Part shown: in pieces, positions 2,140 to 15,720 of the stretch
Layout of the letters: every line of letters starts with the position of its first letter
How positions within the stretch are numbered: position 1 is the stretch's first letter
Origin: a virus
Strand: one strand, 5' to 3'
Length of the DNA stretch: 28,582 nt
Virus record (IMG/VR): IMGVR_UViG_3300028025_001592
Location: 1-28,582 of that record
Position numbers and translations under genes: made by a program
Notes under the pieces: generated by a model
The model's input: the letters and a program-made list of their open reading frames with translations, nothing else
Told to the model about the DNA's origin: nothing
Databases searched by the model: none

Positions 2140-2955
2140 ATGAAAACACTCCGCCGAAGTATCGGTAAGCCAGAGGTGGGGGGCGAACCACTTGCCCCTC
2201 CCTTTCAGGCTTTCCAACGTGAAGGTATCATTCTGCGACGAGCAGAAGTTACAGTCATAGCAGGTACTCCAGGCGCAGGTAAGTCATCTATTGCATTGCA
2301 TATCGCAGCAAGATTAAAACAACCTACCTTATACTTCTCTGCGGATACCAATGCACATACAATGGCAATGCGTTTGCTTGCTATGAAAGCCAAGATTACA
2401 CAGCAACAGTCAGAGTATATGCTCAAGACTGACCCAGATAAAGCAGCCGAATACTTACGAGAGTTCGGTAATATGTATTGGTCCTTTGAACCTAGCCCTA
2501 CATTAAAAGATTTAGATGAAGAGGTCTCAGCATTTGAGACCATGTGGGGTAGAAGTCCTACGCTTATAGTTGTAGACAATCTTATGGACATTGCTATTGA
2601 TGGACATGAAGAGTTTGCAGGTATGCGTGCAGTGATGAAAGAACTTAAGTATCTTGCAAGAGATACTAACGCAGCAGTACTAGTGCTACACCACACACAA
2701 GAAGGTGCACCTGGCTACCCATGTCAGCCTCGCTCTGCATTGCAGGGTAAGGTTGCACAGATTCCAGCGATGGTGTTAACCGTAGGTCAGATGTTGCAAG
2801 GTGCAGATGCATACTTATGTGTAGCCCCTGTTAAAAATCGCTATGGCAAAGCAGACCCTACTGGTGCAACATATATATCCTTATCATTTGACCCTGCATC
2901 TATGTACTTAGAAGATGTAGTCCGAGACTATAGACAGGTAGAAATGACAGTATGA
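2140..2955 (+). CDS. RecA/DnaB-fold ATPase, probable replicative helicase
   Basis: This 271-residue protein has a Walker A motif GTPGAGKSS at residues 42-50, an aromatic/acidic strand LYFSAD at 64-69 that fits the catalytic Glu/Asp strand region, Walker B TLIVVDN at 141-147, and a DnaB-type H4 sensor segment LVLHHT at 181-186. A Gln-containing loop (LQGKVAQIP) follows, as in the DNA-binding loop of DnaB. It lacks the N-terminal primase-binding domain of full DnaB, so it is a core-only helicase of the DnaB/KaiC/RadA class. It probably unwinds DNA at the phage fork with the primase encoded just downstream. RadA-like recombinase is the main alternative. It overlaps the next gene as ATGA. Confidence 0.85.
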   Translation: MKTLRRSIGKPEVGGEPLAPPFQAFQREGIILRRAEVTVIAGTPGAGKSSIALHIAARLKQPTLYFSADTNAHTMAMRLLAMKAKITQQQSEYMLKTDPDKAAEYLREFGNMYWSFEPSPTLKDLDEEVSAFETMWGRSPTLIVVDNLMDIAIDGHEEFAGMRAVMKELKYLARDTNAAVLVLHHTQEGAPGYPCQPRSALQGKVAQIPAMVLTVGQMLQGADAYLCVAPVKNRYGKADPTGATYISLSFDPASMYLEDVVRDYRQVEMTV

Positions 2956-3302
2956 GTAGTGCAGCCAAAGCCAAAGGCTCAGGTGCAGAACGCGATGTCG
3001 TTAAGTACTTGAAGGAACAGGGATTTCCATATGCCGATAGGCGTTTGGCTGGTGCTACTCTAGATAAGGGTGACATCTCAGGTATACCTGGAGTTACAAT
3101 CGAGATAAAGAACCATGCCAAGATGAACTTGGCAGGTTGGACAGAAGAGTTGATAGTCGAGATGGCTAACGACAACGCATGGACAGGCGTGGTGTGGCAC
3201 AAGCGCAAGGGTAGGGGAAGCCCTAGTGAGTGGTACTGCACCATGCCTGGCTATGTATATGTAGACTTACTAAGGAGAGCAATTGGAGAAGCCAAGCATT
3301 GA
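2952..3302 (+). CDS. Holliday junction resolvase-like nuclease (Hjc type)
   Basis: This 116-residue protein has the features of the small archaeal-type PD-(D/E)XK resolvases found in many phages. These are an N-terminal KGSGAERDV with the metal-binding Glu at residue 13, the catalytic GDISGIPG (Asp near 41) and the EIKN motif about ten residues later. The C-terminal half has a Trp-rich strand region (TGVVWHKRKG) and closes with a helix. Hjc-like enzymes cut four-way junctions as dimers; in phages they resolve recombination or branched replication intermediates before packaging. Its start overlaps the stop of the helicase gene (ATGA), which argues for coupled translation. It could instead be a VRR-NUC-like nuclease, but length and motif order favour Hjc. 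Confidence 0.8.
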   Translation: MSSAAKAKGSGAERDVVKYLKEQGFPYADRRLAGATLDKGDISGIPGVTIEIKNHAKMNLAGWTEELIVEMANDNAWTGVVWHKRKGRGSPSEWYCTMPGYVYVDLLRRAIGEAKH

Positions 3303-3660
3303 AGAATATCTCCACTACATAGGTGCAGACACACCTGCAATAGGTAGCGGTTGGCGTAAGATGAAGTGTCCTTTTCATGGTGACACACACGCTAGTGCTG
3401 CAGTAAACTATGATAAGAATGCATTTGTATGCCACGGATGTGGAGTGAAAGGCGACACTTACTCGCTTATTATGTATAAAGAAGGGGGAGATTATCGTGA
3501 GGCTGTCAAGTTCGCAGCGTCAGTTCTTGCTACTGGCAACACAGAGGTACGCCAGCAAGATAGAACTCGCAAAGGATTATCTATCAAGCCGTCAACTCTC
3601 GGTAGAAGAGGCAAACATATTTCACTTGGGAGTGGTAGACGACCCACTTCCAGGGCATGA
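3283..3660 (+). CDS. DNA primase, N-terminal zinc-binding part (frame broken)
   Basis: The start is TTG at 3283 with AAGGAG five bases upstream, overlapping the resolvase gene by 20 bases. Residues 29-53 form a CHC2 zinc finger (C29, H32, C50, C53), followed by the usual GVKGD and an amphipathic helix (residues 60-82) as in DnaG-type primases. After about residue 90 the translation becomes an Arg/Ser/Gly-rich string with no family resemblance, ending at a TGA at 3658-3660. The rest of the primase is in the +1 frame, in the overlapping entry starting at 3497. The functional protein, if joined, would be about 281 residues. A sequencing indel, a programmed +1 frameshift, or two separate polypeptides are all possible; see findings. 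Confidence 0.8.
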   Translation: MEKPSIEEYLHYIGADTPAIGSGWRKMKCPFHGDTHASAAVNYDKNAFVCHGCGVKGDTYSLIMYKEGGDYREAVKFAASVLATGNTEVRQQDRTRKGLSIKPSTLGRRGKHISLGSGRRPTSRA

Positions 3661-4129
3661 TGCTTACAAAGGTAGGCTAGCAATACCATACATCACACCA
3701 TCAGGTGTGGTTGATATTAGATTCCGTGCAATGCACAATGAAGACCCTAAGTACATGGGTCTAGTCGGTGCCAAGACCACGATGTTTAACACACAGGCTT
3801 GCTTCGTAGCAGACAAATACATCTGCGTAACCGAAGGTGAGTTCGATTGTATTATGATGTCAGTTAAAACTATACACCCAACTATAGGTATTCCAGGGGC
3901 TAACAACTGGAAGCCACATTACGCTAAGATACTTGATGACTTTGACATTGTGATTGTACTAGCAGATGGTGATGCAGCAGGGCTAGAGTTCGGCAAGAAA
4001 ATTAGCCGTGAGGTAGGCAATGTAAACATCATCTCTATGCCAGAAGGCGAAGATGTAAACAGCATGATGATAAAGATGGGGAGTGAATGGATTGACGAAC
4101 GAATCAGAGAATGCATTACCATTGGATGA
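3497..4129 (+). CDS. DNA primase, TOPRIM catalytic part
   Basis: This reading frame holds the catalytic half of the phage primase. Numbered from the GTG at 3497, residues 22-45 (KIELAKDYLSSRQLS and FHLG) and 60-77 (RLAIPY, DIRFR) match the region between zinc finger and TOPRIM. The TOPRIM core follows: VTEGEFD at 111-117 with the catalytic Glu, and LADGDAAG at 155-162 with the Asp pair, ending in PEGEDVNS. It makes RNA primers at the fork with the helicase encoded upstream. The GTG at 3497 has GGGGGAG six bases upstream, so separate translation is possible. Its first ~19 residues, however, look like an out-of-frame reading of the N-terminal part. It overlaps the next gene by 47 bases. Confidence 0.8.
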   Translation: MRLSSSQRQFLLLATQRYASKIELAKDYLSSRQLSVEEANIFHLGVVDDPLPGHDAYKGRLAIPYITPSGVVDIRFRAMHNEDPKYMGLVGAKTTMFNTQACFVADKYICVTEGEFDCIMMSVKTIHPTIGIPGANNWKPHYAKILDDFDIVIVLADGDAAGLEFGKKISREVGNVNIISMPEGEDVNSMMIKMGSEWIDERIRECITIG

Positions 4130-4713: not shown

Positions 4714-5428
4714 CCTTCAGATTCCTTATCAAGATAACACAGCCGTAGATGCTACGTTAGACTTCATCCGCGATTACAAACCAGATGAACTCTGGTGTGT
4801 AGGAGATGAACTCGATGCACCCGAACCAAGTCGCTGGAATAAAGGCATGCTTGGTGAATACGCAGATACACTACAAGACAGCATTGATTTAACAAATGAA
4901 ATAATGTCTGATTATAAGACAGCGTTAGGTAAGAACAAACCGTTCTATGTCCAACGCTCTAACCATACTGACCGCATTGATACTTACATGCGTAAGTTTG
5001 CACCAGCATTTAGCAGCCTAACCTCACTTAAGATTGAGGAACTACTTGGCTATAAAAAACTAGGTATCAATTACTTGCATAAGATGCATGAGTTATTACC
5101 TGGTTGGGTTATGGCACATGGAGATGAAGGCGCACTTAACCGTGCACCAGGTGCTACTGCATTGAACCTAGCAAAACGTTTAGGTAAATCAGTAGTGTGT
5201 GGGCACACGCATCGTGTTGGTTTACAACATGAGACTACAGGTTTTTATGGCAAGACTAATACTCTATACGGATTAGAAGTCGGACATATGATGGATATGG
5301 CACAGGCAAGTTACCTTACTTCAGGTAGCGCCAACTGGCAGCAAGGCATTGGTATCCTAGTGCAGACAGGTAACAAAGTTACACCGTTTGCTGTACCAAT
5401 TGTAGATGGTCAGGTAATTATTCCATAA
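4676..5428 (+). CDS. calcineurin-like metallophosphoesterase
   Basis: The 250-residue protein shows the metallophosphoesterase motifs in order: LSDLQIP at residues 11-17, GDELD at 43-47, SNHTDR at 95-100, AHGDEG at 147-152 and CGHTHR at 175-180. The first motif is D-x-Q, not the classical D-x-H, a replacement I associate with phage members of this fold. The enzyme would hydrolyse a phosphoester on DNA ends, a nucleotide or a protein; the substrate cannot be read from sequence. I chose ATG 4676 because the motif I strand begins just after it; an ATG at 4628 would add 16 residues lying inside the preceding gene. GGAAGG at 4656-4661 is a distant ribosome site. The stop overlaps the sigma-like gene as TAATG. 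Confidence 0.85.
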   Translation: MAKQSKRVVVLSDLQIPYQDNTAVDATLDFIRDYKPDELWCVGDELDAPEPSRWNKGMLGEYADTLQDSIDLTNEIMSDYKTALGKNKPFYVQRSNHTDRIDTYMRKFAPAFSSLTSLKIEELLGYKKLGINYLHKMHELLPGWVMAHGDEGALNRAPGATALNLAKRLGKSVVCGHTHRVGLQHETTGFYGKTNTLYGLEVGHMMDMAQASYLTSGSANWQQGIGILVQTGNKVTPFAVPIVDGQVIIP

Positions 5429-6078
5429 TGAATTACATTGAAGAGTATAACGAAATGGTACAGACTCTAGCAACAGATTACTCGCGCAAGTACAGCATGC
5501 TTGAGCGAGATGACATTGCACAAGAGTTGTGGGTGTGGTTTGTTGGACACCCACGCAAGTACAAAGAATGGTCAGCATTAGAGCAAAAGGACCGCGATAA
5601 ACTTATCGCTAAGTCTCTACGAAATGCAGCATTAAAGTATTGTGAACGGGCTAAATCCCAGAAGATTGGGTACGATATGTCCGATTTATACTACTATGAT
5701 GTGTCAGTTGTAGAGGCTTTCTTGCCTTCCATCATTGGTGAGACCTACGAAATACCAGTTAAAATCAAGGATTTGGGCAGCCAAGTCAAGTCAAATGAAA
5801 TCAGTGATGGTAACAATTGGCTAGCCCTACGCTCAGATATAGCAACAGGTTACTACAAGTTAACGGAAGCAAAACAAAATGTGTTGCGTTTACGCTTTAG
5901 TGTAGAACAACCAGACTGGGCAACACTATCTAAAGAAATGGATAGCACACCAGATGGTGCACGTAAGAAAGTAGAGCGTGCGCTTGCATCGCTTGTTAAG
6001 AACTTAGGGGGGTGGAGACCATACCATGACAAAGACACAGTCGAAGAAACAAACAATGAAACCCAACACACAGAATAA
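5428..6078 (+). CDS. RNA polymerase sigma-70-like factor
   Basis: This 216-residue protein has the two-domain layout of a small sigma factor. Residues 5-48 resemble region 2 (ERDDIAQELWVWF, the core-binding helix), followed by a basic helix to about 80. Residues 145-195 resemble region 4, with LTEAKQNVLRLRF, a turn, then WATLSKEMDSTPDGARKKVERAL as the helix-turn-helix that would read a -35 box. The middle (85-140) is a divergent linker. Such factors in phages may redirect host polymerase to middle or late genes, which would fit the opposite-strand structural operon of this phage; that target is inference. The C-terminal 20 residues are acidic and poorly ordered and overlap the next gene by 53 bases. 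Confidence 0.75.
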   Translation: MNYIEEYNEMVQTLATDYSRKYSMLERDDIAQELWVWFVGHPRKYKEWSALEQKDRDKLIAKSLRNAALKYCERAKSQKIGYDMSDLYYYDVSVVEAFLPSIIGETYEIPVKIKDLGSQVKSNEISDGNNWLALRSDIATGYYKLTEAKQNVLRLRFSVEQPDWATLSKEMDSTPDGARKKVERALASLVKNLGGWRPYHDKDTVEETNNETQHTE

Positions 6079-7074: not shown

Positions 7075-7335
7075 ATGTTCCGACCAAGTAGTACACCTGC
7101 TTGTCAAGGTACAGACGAAGAAGCATTCTTTGTGCCAGATGGTTCCAGTACATACAGCGACATTGCTACCCTTAGAAGGGTATGTAGTGGGTGTCAGGTC
7201 AAGACTGAGTGTCTTAACTATGCACTCAACCATGCAGTGTTAGGGTACTGGGGTAACACAACAGAGCACCAGCGTGCTGACCTCCGTAAAAAACTTAATA
7301 TAATTCCACAACCGCTATACCTTAGTTACGCATAG
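7075..7335 (+). CDS. WhiB-family iron-sulfur transcription regulator
   Basis: The 86-residue protein has the four WhiB cysteines, C10, C37, C40 and C46 (C...CxxC-x5-C), which hold a 4Fe-4S cluster, followed by the beta-turn motif GYWGN at 57-61, a variant of the usual G[VI]WGG, and a basic C-terminus (RADLRKKL) for DNA contact. WhiB proteins are confined to actinobacteria and their phages, so this gene is the best host marker in the window. In phage TM4 a WhiB homologue represses host whiB2 and blocks septation; a similar role here is possible but inferred. The start has a perfect AGGAGG six bases upstream, the strongest ribosome site in the + arm, suggesting high expression. Confidence 0.93.
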   Translation: MFRPSSTPACQGTDEEAFFVPDGSSTYSDIATLRRVCSGCQVKTECLNYALNHAVLGYWGNTTEHQRADLRKKLNIIPQPLYLSYA

Positions 7336-8603: not shown

Positions 8604-8776
8604 TATTCTTCGTCCTTTAGGTTACGTAGCGGGAAAGTAATACCCCAGATGATGAGGCATATACCAATTGCATAACCAACTATTGATTTGGCAGAACCTT
8701 CAAGGACTACCCAAGCAACGAACATTCCAAGGAGTGTCCATAATTGGTTGGCAATATCTGATAAAAATTTCTTCAT
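8603..8776 (-). CDS. small two-helix membrane protein, second holin candidate
   Basis: This short gene encodes 57 residues with two hydrophobic segments, about 12-29 (LWTLLGMFVAWVVLEG) and 31-50 (SIVGYAIGICLIIWGI), between a basic start (MKKFLSD) and a charged end (RNLKDEE). The N-terminal positive charge and the C-terminal acids suggest both ends face the cytoplasm. The ATG overlaps the TGA of the proline-rich protein gene (ATGA), whose last codons contain its AGGAGA site, and its TAA overlaps the next ATG. It is likely a holin, antiholin or pinholin-like protein. Confidence 0.75.
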   Translation of the reverse strand: MKKFLSDIANQLWTLLGMFVAWVVLEGSAKSIVGYAIGICLIIWGITFPLRNLKDEE

Positions 8777-9807
8777 GGTTTTCTCCTATAGGTGGCTCCT
8801 GCTGCAGCGGATGCTGCTGCTTGTGTTGCTATACCCCCTGCGATAATGGCAGATACGACTACCTTCTCGGATTGTTCTCTCACTTCTGGTGTCATGTCTG
8901 CACCAACTGACCCCAACGCAGCCAACGCTGCGCCTGGGTTTGTAAATATTTCTTGCAGCATTGCTGCTGGGTCTTGTAATAATTGAACTGCTATTGCTAC
9001 CTGTGCCGTAACTACAACACCATTTGATAATTCAACTGGCGTGTCGGGAGGCAGCGCCTCCAACTCAACCTCATCTACCTGTACAATTTCAGGTTCAGGT
9101 TCTGGTTCAGGCGCTGGAGCAGGAGGCTCAGGCGCTGGTTCTGGAACGGGAGGTGGTTCAGATGGAATTGGTTCAGGTTCTGGAGCAGGTGTTTGTGGCT
9201 CTTCTACAGGTGGCAGTGGCTCCACTGCTGGTGGTAACTCTGGTTCTGTTACTACTGGTATTTGTGGAACGGAAGGAATAGGCGTTGGTTCAGGCGCAGG
9301 TTCTGGTGATGGCTGCGGTGTCGGTTCTTGCGTTGGTTCTGGCAACGGCAACGGTTGGGGAGTTGGCTCAACTGAGGGTTCTGGTGAAGGCTCAGGAGTT
9401 ACAACTGGCTCAGGAGAAGGTGAAGGTTCGACAGTTGGAGTTGGCTCAGGCTCAGGCGTTGGAGGCACAGAGGGTTCAGGAGTTGGCTCAACGACGGGCA
9501 TCGGAGTGGGACTTACATTAGGCACTAAGCCAGCATAGTAACCAAGAGAACTGTCAGAAAGATTATCACTAACGTAAATGTTGTATTGTCCTGCATATCC
9601 ACCCGTGCAATAAAAGGCAGGAATATATCCCTTGCCATCAAAGAATGATTGGTTATTATCCCAACCAATTTGTGCTGTATGTGTTTGACCTTGTGCGTTA
9701 GCACACACTACTGTTGTGTAAGCAGAAGTAGCATTAGCAAACGGCAAAGAAAATAAAGAAGTACCCACTACAATAGAGATAACTGCAAGTAAACGGGGAA
9801 GTTTCAA
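8773..9807 (-). CDS. secreted proline-rich membrane-anchored protein
   Basis: The start is TTG at 9807 with AAAGG six bases upstream. The 344-residue product has a signal peptide (MKLPRLL, hydrophobic core, ANATS with likely cleavage near residue 26). A small domain with two Cys (about 27-95, VVCANAQG to AFYCTGG) follows, then roughly 155 residues of Pro/Glu/Thr/Ser repeats (PTPEP, PEPEP). Next come a short acidic-to-apolar region (about 250-310) and a final hydrophobic segment (VVVSAIIAGGIATQAAASA) ending in YRRKP. The topology is therefore a surface domain on a stiff stalk anchored by a C-terminal helix with basic residues inside. It lies in the lysis cassette. A wall-spanning lysis aid or a superinfection-exclusion protein are possibilities; I do not recognise the globular part. 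Confidence 0.75.
   Translation of the reverse strand: MKLPRLLAVISIVVGTSLFSLPFANATSAYTTVVCANAQGQTHTAQIGWDNNQSFFDGKGYIPAFYCTGGYAGQYNIYVSDNLSDSSLGYYAGLVPNVSPTPMPVVEPTPEPSVPPTPEPEPTPTVEPSPSPEPVVTPEPSPEPSVEPTPQPLPLPEPTQEPTPQPSPEPAPEPTPIPSVPQIPVVTEPELPPAVEPLPPVEEPQTPAPEPEPIPSEPPPVPEPAPEPPAPAPEPEPEPEIVQVDEVELEALPPDTPVELSNGVVVTAQVAIAVQLLQDPAAMLQEIFTNPGAALAALGSVGADMTPEVREQSEKVVVSAIIAGGIATQAAASAAAGATYRRKP
9057..9513 (-). repeat. low-complexity Pro/Glu repeat tract within the secreted protein gene
   Basis: A degenerate 6- to 12-base repeat (on the + strand, variations of GGTTCAGGTTCTGG) encodes the PTPEP/PEPEP stalk. The repeat keeps an open frame on the + strand as well, which translates as Ser/Gly strings and should not be called a gene. 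Such tracts change length by slippage. Confidence 0.8.
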
Positions 9808-12439: not shown

Positions 12440-13276
12440 CTAAAAATCTTTTCCTTTAATTTTCATTAAGGAATCTTTACGCCAAAACTCCATATTAGAA
12501 TACTTGTGCTTTATATAATCTGATAGTATGTCCGTACTGGTTGTAGACTTAGATAGACTTTTTCTTATGTCGTGTAAATTCTTAGGCAGTCCTATAGATT
12601 CATCATCGTCTATTTCTACCTTTTCAATCTTCTTAAAGTTATGTTCATACTCAGGTAACTCTAAAAATTTGTAGATACCAGACATTGTTTCTTCTGGCTT
12701 AAGGACTAAATCATTATACTCTACAATGTGGAACATACCTTTGTTCTCTGGCAAGAAAGCAGTTGCTAAACCAAGCAGTGCTCTATCTAACTCACCATTA
12801 GGAGCCATTAGATATTCTACTACACAATCTTTTTCTGAGCGATAGTTAAGATAAAAACTTGAACTGTTTGCAGTATTTGTTTTTAAGTAGTCAGCATCCA
12901 TCTTAACAAAAGAAGCAATAATGTCTAACACATCACGAACCGTAACTATAATTTTAGGGGTCGGTGTTATGTATTCTTTTATTAAAGCCAAGTTAGCGGG
13001 TGTTCCCCAATTTTTTTCTCTATCAATTACTATTGGCTTTTCAATATCTTTATAAAAGTTATTCATAAAAGAAGATAAAAACTCATCAGCCCTAAGTTTG
13101 TTTTCTTTATTGCGAGTAATTGCTTCTGTATGATATGAACCTCTATAGTCCCACATAAGCCCAGCAATAGGGCTTAGTGGACTACTATAGATGTCTGGGT
13201 TTTGATTAAATATTGAAGATAGAAGTGTGTTACCACTTCGTGGTAGCCCTGCTAGAAAGTGATATTTTTTATCCAT
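12440..13276 (-). CDS. PAPS-dependent sulfotransferase
   Basis: The 278-residue protein begins with the PAPS-binding P-loop GLPRSGNTLLSS (residues 10-21) after strand YHFLA, typical of the Sulfotransfer_3 family. The 3'-phosphate site follows as VTVRDVLDIIASF (111-123), with R114 and S122 in the canonical R-x7-S spacing. DREKNWG (85-91) stands where the family has its acceptor-side Lys/Asn. The enzyme moves sulfate from PAPS to a hydroxyl or amino group on a glycan, lipid or protein; its acceptor is unknown. It is cytoplasmic, with no signal or membrane anchor. By eye it is richer in A+T than the flanking tail genes, has its own apparent promoter and no ribosome site, and interrupts the tail-gene series: the signature of a moron acquired by transfer. 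Confidence 0.88.
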   Translation of the reverse strand: MDKKYHFLAGLPRSGNTLLSSIFNQNPDIYSSPLSPIAGLMWDYRGSYHTEAITRNKENKLRADEFLSSFMNNFYKDIEKPIVIDREKNWGTPANLALIKEYITPTPKIIVTVRDVLDIIASFVKMDADYLKTNTANSSSFYLNYRSEKDCVVEYLMAPNGELDRALLGLATAFLPENKGMFHIVEYNDLVLKPEETMSGIYKFLELPEYEHNFKKIEKVEIDDDESIGLPKNLHDIRKSLSKSTTSTDILSDYIKHKYSNMEFWRKDSLMKIKGKDF

Positions 13277-13310: not shown

Positions 13311-14147
13311 TTAGCCAGTTACTATAATGACTACACCTGAACCACCATTGGAACCATTAAAGTTTCCACGACCAGCACCTCCACCACCACCACCTGTGTT
13401 TGTGCCTCCTGCAGTTCCAGAACCTGGACTACCTCCGCCTCCACCGTTACCGCCACCACCTGAACCGCCAGTGCCAACTGCGGTGTATCCTCCACCGCCA
13501 CCACCACCTGCATAAGTTACAGATGAACCAGTAATAGATGAAGCAAACCCTGCACCACCATTGCCACCTTTTGAACTTGTTGCATTTACTCCAACGGCAG
13601 AACCACCACCCCCACCACCACCGTGATTAGAGCGTGCTTCACCGCCAGCAAAACCTTGCCCACTGATACCACTACCTTGTTGATAAAAACTTCCACCAAC
13701 AGAGCCACCACCTGAGCCACCAATGCTTGCCCGTCTATTAGATGCGCCACCGCCTCTACCACCACCTACTGCAGTAATTAGCGCATCAATAGCACTTGGA
13801 AAACCAATTTGACCTAAGCCATCAGCATTTGTGGCATTGCCACCAGCACCTACTAATATATTTAATGTTCCGCTTGGAAGATATTGTGAAGCACGATATA
13901 TTACTCCACCTGCTCCGCCACCTCCAGCACCGTCACCACCGCTTTCGGCTCTTCCGCCTGAACCACCACCGCCTACAACAAGAATTTCAGCAGTGCCAGC
14001 AGTGCCAACAGTAATAGAACCAGAGGCGTTAAATGTGTAAATAGTTTTACCAGCACGGCTGCTTGTGTCAACAGATGGTGAACCAGTAGTGGAAGTTATT
14101 GCAGCCTTACCAATTCCTCCACCACCAACGGGGGTAAACAATGGCAT
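13311..14147 (-). CDS. polyglycine-rich tail adhesin-like protein
   Basis: This 278-residue protein has an ordinary beta-like N-terminus (about residues 15-55, with KTIYTFNASGSITVGTAG and then ILVVGGGGSGG) that matches the start of the glycine-rich domain of phage tail proteins. After that it is dominated by Gly runs (many GGGGG, GGNGGAG, GGSGGGG) broken by short Ser/Thr/aromatic segments such as SVTYAGG and VIYRASQYLPSG. It ends in VVIIVTG. Such sequences can pack as polyglycine-II helix bundles, as in the gp38-type adhesins of T-even-like phages, with receptor specificity in the loops. It probably sits at the fibre tip and binds the host surface. It resembles the 257-residue protein at 14947-15720 in plan. 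Confidence 0.78.
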   Translation of the reverse strand: MPLFTPVGGGGIGKAAITSTTGSPSVDTSSRAGKTIYTFNASGSITVGTAGTAEILVVGGGGSGGRAESGGDGAGGGGAGGVIYRASQYLPSGTLNILVGAGGNATNADGLGQIGFPSAIDALITAVGGGRGGGASNRRASIGGSGGGSVGGSFYQQGSGISGQGFAGGEARSNHGGGGGGGSAVGVNATSSKGGNGGAGFASSITGSSVTYAGGGGGGGYTAVGTGGSGGGGNGGGGGSPGSGTAGGTNTGGGGGGAGRGNFNGSNGGSGVVIIVTG

Positions 14148-14946: not shown

Positions 14947-15720
14947 TTATGACCAGTAGGTAATACGACAGTAGCCTGAACCACCAGCGCCACCAGTACT
15001 GGTGTTAGTACCGCTACCACCACCACCACCGCCAGTGTTAGCAGTTCCTGCATAGCCACCACTACCGCCATTACCGTTACCACCACCGCTGCTTGCAGCA
15101 CCGCCAGAACCTGAGCCTCCGCCCCCGCCTCCACCGCCACCGAAGCCATCAATACCAATACCACCAACGCCAGGAATACCACCGCTGCTGGCAAAACCTC
15201 CTGCGCCGCCCTGATTGCCTTTACCGCCTCTGGCTTGAGAGGAGGCACTAGAAGTACCACCGCCATTTCCGCCAGGACCTCCTGCACCACCTCCGCCACC
15301 ACTAGCAGAAGTTCCTCCTGCCGTGCCAGCACCTCCGCCAGTACCACCAGTTTGAGCCTTACCACCGCCACCGCCTTGGGCAGTTAGTAAAGCACCAAAA
15401 GTAGAGTTACCTCCATTACTTCCAGGAGGATTTAATCCAGAAGCACCATTGCCACCAGCACCACCAGCGCCAATAGTAATTGTATAAGTTGTTGAAGGAA
15501 CAACTGTTATTTCTCTTTTTAGAACAGCACCTCCACCGCCTCCACCACCAGATTGGCTGCTAGGGGAATAACCACCCATACCTCCGCCACCACCTGCAAC
15601 TAAAAATACATCAACAGTTGTTACATTTGCAGGGGATGTCCAAGTACCTGTACTTGTAAATGTTTGTGTCTTTTGTGTTAAACCTGCAGCACTAGGTGCT
15701 GGAAATACTGTTGATGCCAT
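14947..15720 (-). CDS. polyglycine-rich tail adhesin-like protein, paralogue
   Basis: The 257-residue protein opens with an Ala/Pro/Thr segment and the strand pair KTQTFTSTGTWTSPANVTTV, then VDVFLVAGGGGG, the same start of glycine-rich domain as in the protein at 13311-14147. Most of the rest consists of Gly runs with Ser, Asn and Ala (GGGGGGGAV, GAGGAGGNG, GGGGGGSGSGG), with an ordered insert KREITVVPSTTYTITIGAG near residues 68-86. It ends GYCRITYWS. The Gly-rich blocks probably form a polyglycine-II core with variable loops. Presence of two such genes suggests two adhesins or a duplication that diverged. Its start shares one base with the end of the preceding gene. Confidence 0.78.
   Translation of the reverse strand: MASTVFPAPSAAGLTQKTQTFTSTGTWTSPANVTTVDVFLVAGGGGGMGGYSPSSQSGGGGGGGAVLKREITVVPSTTYTITIGAGGAGGNGASGLNPPGSNGGNSTFGALLTAQGGGGGKAQTGGTGGGAGTAGGTSASGGGGGAGGPGGNGGGTSSASSQARGGKGNQGGAGGFASSGGIPGVGGIGIDGFGGGGGGGGGSGSGGAASSGGGNGNGGSGGYAGTANTGGGGGGSGTNTSTGGAGGSGYCRITYWS

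Follow-up and report, generated by a model that had tools for sequence, protein, structure and literature searches.

Does a phage primase that changes reading frame midway belong to one protein or to two? The question is raised by a locus in an IMG/VR virus record (IMGVR_UViG_3300028025_001592), whose whole stretch of 28,582 nucleotides is here called the window. A sequence-only reading had placed a CHC2 zinc-binding domain in frame 1 (from TTG 3283) and a TOPRIM domain in frame 2, had regarded both as parts of one protein, and had offered a sequencing indel, programmed frameshifting or a two-subunit primase as explanations. The two genes, called P1 and P2, and the features around them are as follows, with Shine–Dalgarno energies computed against an assumed actinobacterial 16S tail:

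2140–2955, plus strand: DnaB-like helicase gene, upstream and in the same direction (phrog_243, 2.2e-71)
2952–3302, plus strand: Holliday-junction-resolvase-like gene between helicase and P1 (phrog_244, 1.2e-23)
3273–3282, plus strand: Shine–Dalgarno of P1 (AAGGAG) before TTG 3283, anti-SD duplex -8.2 kcal/mol
3283–3660, plus strand: P1, DnaG-type zinc-binding domain protein, 125 aa, start TTG 3283, stop TGA 3658–3660
3480–3496, plus strand: internal Shine–Dalgarno for P2 (AAGGGGGAG), duplex -14.0 kcal/mol
3497–3499, plus strand: GTG start of P2, an NTG in 159 of 159 close loci
3497–3660, plus strand: dual-coding overlap, 164 nt, with phase-specific substitution rates and depleted P1-radical changes
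3497–4129, plus strand: P2, DnaG-type RNA-polymerase (TOPRIM) domain protein, 210 aa, GTG 3497 to TGA 4129
3571–3574, plus strand: AAAG, the proposed slip site, non-conserved (16 of 159 close loci)

Profile searches confirm both domain assignments. P1, an ORF occupied by the CHC2 zinc-binding domain, matches Pfam Zn_ribbon_DnaG (1.9e-13), phrog_360 (2.7e-28) and the structures 1d0q and 2au3; Foldseek with the P1 model also leads to 1d0q. The zinc ribbon covers residues 1–83 and is followed by a basic Gly/Arg/Ser tail (residues 85–125), and the AF2 model is folded up to residue 83 and disordered from 85. C29, C50 and C53 do not vary in either alignment of relatives, nor does H32 in the first. 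P2 matches Toprim_2 (Pfam, 4.7e-7) and phrog_849 'DNA primase' (2.4e-42), its profile matches in the PDB are DnaG RNA-polymerase domains, and residues E113, G114, E115, D117 and D159 are invariant in the alignment of relatives.

Modelled alone by AF2, P2 has a mean pLDDT of 94.5, with helix 5–19, encoded upstream of AAAG, at ~98. Residues 2–210 align with residues 98–350 of the Aquifex primase 2au3 (VIA-align Z 22.4, rmsd 2.7, 208 aligned) and with residues 112–368 of the B. subtilis DnaG RNA-polymerase domain 5guj (Z 22.3, rmsd 2.3, 206 aligned), and by these scores P2 has the fold of the DnaG RNA-polymerase domain. Since P2 aligns from residue 2 with the start of that domain, it begins at the inter-domain boundary. 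Its N-terminus is conserved among relatives and is predicted to fold as the first helix of the DnaG RNA-polymerase domain. Frame 2 had been considered primase-like from KIELAKDYLSS; it is instead primase-like from its start, where LSSSQRQFLLLATQRY forms P2 residues 3–18.

P2 lies in the +1 frame relative to P1, and their overlap encodes the first helices of P2, which are ordered, and the tail of P1, which is disordered. The frame break and the +1 relation were found in 159 of 159 close loci (the window plus IMG/VR, with some contigs counted twice), which answers the homologue alignment that had been proposed as a check on conservation of the break. Both recur in all 80 ct2KA10-like loci; of the loci from isolate phages 13 of 14 have them, and of those on bacterial genome contigs 32 of 38. 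When every locus was classified by profile, there were 322 overlapping +1 pairs, some of them duplicate contigs, and 40 non-overlapping pairs; on this comparison, the overlapping arrangement is far beyond chance. In none of the 159 close loci do the zinc-binding and RNA-polymerase domains share a chain; all have them in separate frames, so the locus is described as a split primase rather than as an ordinary DnaG. The TOPRIM domain lies in the following ORF with its own start, and this, together with the conserved separation of frames, supports two proteins instead of the single one first assumed.

Substitution rates were obtained from 52 disjoint pairs of relatives, which are only approximately independent. 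The P1 third-position rate per site is 0.177 upstream of 3497 vs 0.022 in 3500–3541, where P2 third positions take over the substitutions. The phase flips at GTG 3497, 74 nt upstream of the proposed slip site, and thus selection on P2 starts at 3497 and not at the suggested crossover. The P2 third-position rate is 0.105 within the overlap vs 0.209 beyond it; this halved rate indicates that P1 is still in use within the overlap. On the 3' side of AAAG, P2-silent changes that are radical or a stop in P1 occur at 0.44x and 0.34x of expectation (0.77x and 1.08x in the control region), a depletion with a binomial p of ~5e-9 on pairs that are only approximately independent. Frame 2 is constrained from 3497 and frame 1 to ~3646, and constraint is not handed from the first frame to the second at the suggested crossover. 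The frame change envisaged between ~3540 and 3574 is replaced by a stretch in which constraint spans both frames, switching on for P2 at 3497, and what had been dismissed as Arg/Ser/Gly junk after residue ~90 of frame 1 is a constrained tail by the same analysis. The silent-site constraint could come in part from RNA-level signals.

The start codon of P2 in the 159 close loci is GTG in 152, ATG in 3, TTG in 3 and CTG in 1. Across these loci, the P1 codon above it always ends in T (NNT), and the P1 residue encoded there varies among eight (R, S, H, I, G, P, N and V). GGGGGAG ends 6 nt before the GTG, as the sequence-only reading had noticed, and the internal Shine–Dalgarno sits within P1 codons for Lys-Glu-Gly-Gly-Asp. 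Its duplex is the strongest among seven starts tested, and only 0.19% of positions reach that energy. Synonymous randomisation of P1, however, gives a mean of -15.4 kcal/mol vs the actual -14.0 at this site, against the same assumed 16S tail. The strong site is dictated by the conserved Lys-Glu-Gly-Gly-Asp, and thus its strength is not independent evidence: the ribosome site is as strong as had been claimed, but its strength follows from P1 residues, and its use as independent proof was rejected because randomised P1 gives equal or stronger sites. In cluster A phages, a site that looks strong by its sequence, GAGGAGGTGA, arises from other residues (Glu-Glu-Val-Ser). A strong Shine–Dalgarno alone is weak evidence for a separate P2 start.

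Could the two frames nevertheless be joined during translation? If ribosomes were programmed to shift by +1 within the overlap, the product would be a P1–P2 fusion, that is, a conventional one-chain primase. The two domains do share one chain in DnaG, T4 gp61 and T7 gp4, and overlapping relatives keep a constant +1 frame relation. However, AAAG, at which the slip had been placed, occurs in just 16 of the 159 close loci, constraint acts on P2 already before this site and on P1 still after it, and a fusion made at 3571–3574 would lose or replace the P2 N-terminal helix. A Jevington-like group has no overlap and shows all three frame relations, and in a relative of Kumquat (L325), 371 nt separate P1 from P2. 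Frameshifting of this kind is thus very improbable. A mixed reading, in which P1 and P2 are made mainly separately and a little fused primase comes from infrequent frameshifting at some point of the overlap, could draw on the conservation of overlap and frame relation wherever the overlap exists and on T7 gene 4, which yields long and short forms (a 56-kDa form is mentioned in PMC9198812). It is impossible in the non-overlapping group and finds no conserved slippery site at 3571–3574 in the 159 close loci, and we consider it unlikely.

That an error of sequencing or assembly broke one intact primase gene would be conceivable for a metagenomic virus record, where single-base errors occur. Yet independent contigs, all close relatives and finished isolate genomes that carry two annotated primase genes share the break, and the substitution patterns are those of long-term dual coding, which leaves an indel with next to no probability. 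The remaining option of the sequence-only reading, a two-subunit primase with a separate start at GTG 3497, agrees with the conserved NTG start and with constraint on both frames. Comparison shows that the split, the P2 start and both frames are conserved among relatives, and separate synthesis of P1 and P2 appears well supported. The locus very probably encodes an obligately split DnaG-type primase, with two proteins translated separately and P2 started internally.

The locus belongs to a widespread type. A tblastn search with P2 returned 1,452 phage records, mainly from phages of Mycobacterium, Streptomyces, Propionibacterium/Cutibacterium, Rhodococcus and Gordonia, and two 'DNA primase' genes are annotated in most of the matches listed. 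The second gene is in the +1 frame and overlaps the first by 149–185 nt in Chargerpower, JSwag, Dinger, Kumquat, BroPlease, Phlei and P100_A; the 164-nt, +1 overlap of the window fits this actinophage two-gene primase pattern (~150–185 nt or immediate adjacency). The Gordonia phage JSwag has its genes gp66/gp65 annotated as 'N-term'/'C-term', and two primase genes, gp31/gp32, are present at annotation level in a P. acnes phage (PMC3094311). Thus, the two-gene layout is already publicly annotated (cluster A and P. acnes phages), and the window adds another case. A literature search, thin on subscription journals, found annotation-level mentions only and no paper working out the mechanism of a split primase.

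Mycobacteriophages of the cluster A/L5 type (Chargerpower gp58/gp57), JSwag and Propionibacterium phage P100_A (gp31/gp30) have the domains, gene order, +1 overlap and P2 start position of the window. Their P2 proteins are ~29–47% identical to that of the window, and their start codons and ribosome-site sequences are different. Phages of Streptomyces and Propionibacterium share with the window the order helicase, resolvase-like gene, zinc protein and TOPRIM protein, to which BroPlease adds a single small ORF; the window, with helicase and resolvase directly upstream, resembles these phages and not the cluster A records compared. The Jevington/Salutena-like Streptomyces phages keep homologous P1 and P2, as the window does, but with a spacer of 13, 14 or 15 nt (frames +1, +2 and 0) in place of the overlap. 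At each spacing, they have their own AAGGAGG ribosome site ahead of the P2 TTG, and neither the P1 tail (GGYVPAWKRK) nor the P2 N-terminus (LSTSQKEMLEEA) has been lost.

Some loci of unusual appearance were rejected as exceptions. L396 (Streptomyces sp. TSRI0281) at first resembled a natural fusion, but a stop interrupts the zinc motif of its ORF and the first helix of P2 is gone; it looks like a decayed copy. The +2 call of L402 arises solely from its own broken P2. The 513-aa gp53 of Mycobacterium phage Fushigi (L091, 28–1569) is not a P1–P2 fusion but a P2 whose TOPRIM region holds an intein-like insert; the insert follows directly after the conserved Glu-Gly-Glu, starts with CLRGDAEVLTPEGW and ends in VTGN before C. 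Amelie gp57/gp58 (PMC11797047) has an unrelated layout. Separately, Streptomyces loci L394 and L397 have an intact P2 and a P1 remnant with the tail but without the zinc motif, as if P1 had been truncated. The 45.5-kb IMG/VR contig 3300028025_001941 contains two different split-primase copies (L200 and L250, at 2.1–7.7 kb and 41.3–45.5 kb), reflecting either a join of two phages or duplication of the module.

Other genes of the window were recorded in passing. A sigma-factor-like protein is encoded at 5428–6078 (phrog_354 'sigma-K factor', 1.1e-16) and an 86-aa ORF with a WhiB-like cysteine pattern at 7075–7335. On the minus strand, 8773–9807 encodes a 344-aa protein with a signal-like N-terminus and then a long Pro/Glu repeat region, 12440–13276 is a sulfotransferase-type-like ORF (LPRSGNTLLSSIF) amid tail-region genes, and 13311–14147 and 14947–15720 encode two very glycine-rich, possibly fibre-like proteins in the tail-gene region.

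Known primases show how such a pair might work. Bacterial DnaG (2au3, 5guj and 1dd9) has the same zinc-binding and RNA-polymerase domain folds as P1 and P2, but it is a single chain with a C-terminal helicase-binding domain, whereas the window is predicted to have two chains and no such domain was seen in it. For DnaG, a zinc domain acting in trans was reportedly described by Corn et al. in 2005, going by the title of that work as cited in PMC6163395. In T7 gp4, the alignment with P2 runs from residue 59–64, with gp4 residue 64 at P2 residue 5, and the T7 short form 4B begins at an internal codon near this position, omitting the zinc domain. The internal start of T7 gene 4 (4A/4B) is in frame and its short form exists beside the full-length primase-helicase; in the window, the P2 start lies in another frame, and a full-length form is not predicted. 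In T4 gp61, the zinc-binding and RNA-polymerase domains are two mobile lobes on the helicase, each binding it separately (PMC10359460), which makes an unlinked primase plausible. An 18-residue linker connects the T4 domains and has been proposed to contribute to measuring primer length (PMC10359460), whereas the window pair would have no covalent link.

For the split primase, one mRNA would give P1 (the zinc-binding domain with its disordered basic tail) and, separately, P2 (the complete RNA-polymerase/TOPRIM domain), initiated at the GTG behind the internal Shine–Dalgarno. P1 and P2 would then cooperate in trans: P1 may bind the template and recognise the priming site, P2 may polymerise the RNA primer, and both may act, on or near the DnaB-like helicase encoded alongside, as parts of a primosome. 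Internal initiation or translation coupling would set the P1:P2 ratio.

These results correct a tempting misreading of a phage locus that is very common, namely that it reflects a frameshift or an error. Because P1 is left unannotated in some records (e.g., Serenity and pa59), the P1/P2 pair should be annotated together. We lean towards the view that in a whole, ancient lineage comprising phages and prophages of actinobacteria the primase lacks the covalent tie between zinc-binding and catalytic domains, with the zinc domain always acting in trans, the overlap under dual selection coupling and proportioning the subunits, and the P1 tail replacing the linker as a binding element. These phages appear to be linker-free and would offer a natural test case for the linker proposal made for T4 (PMC10359460).
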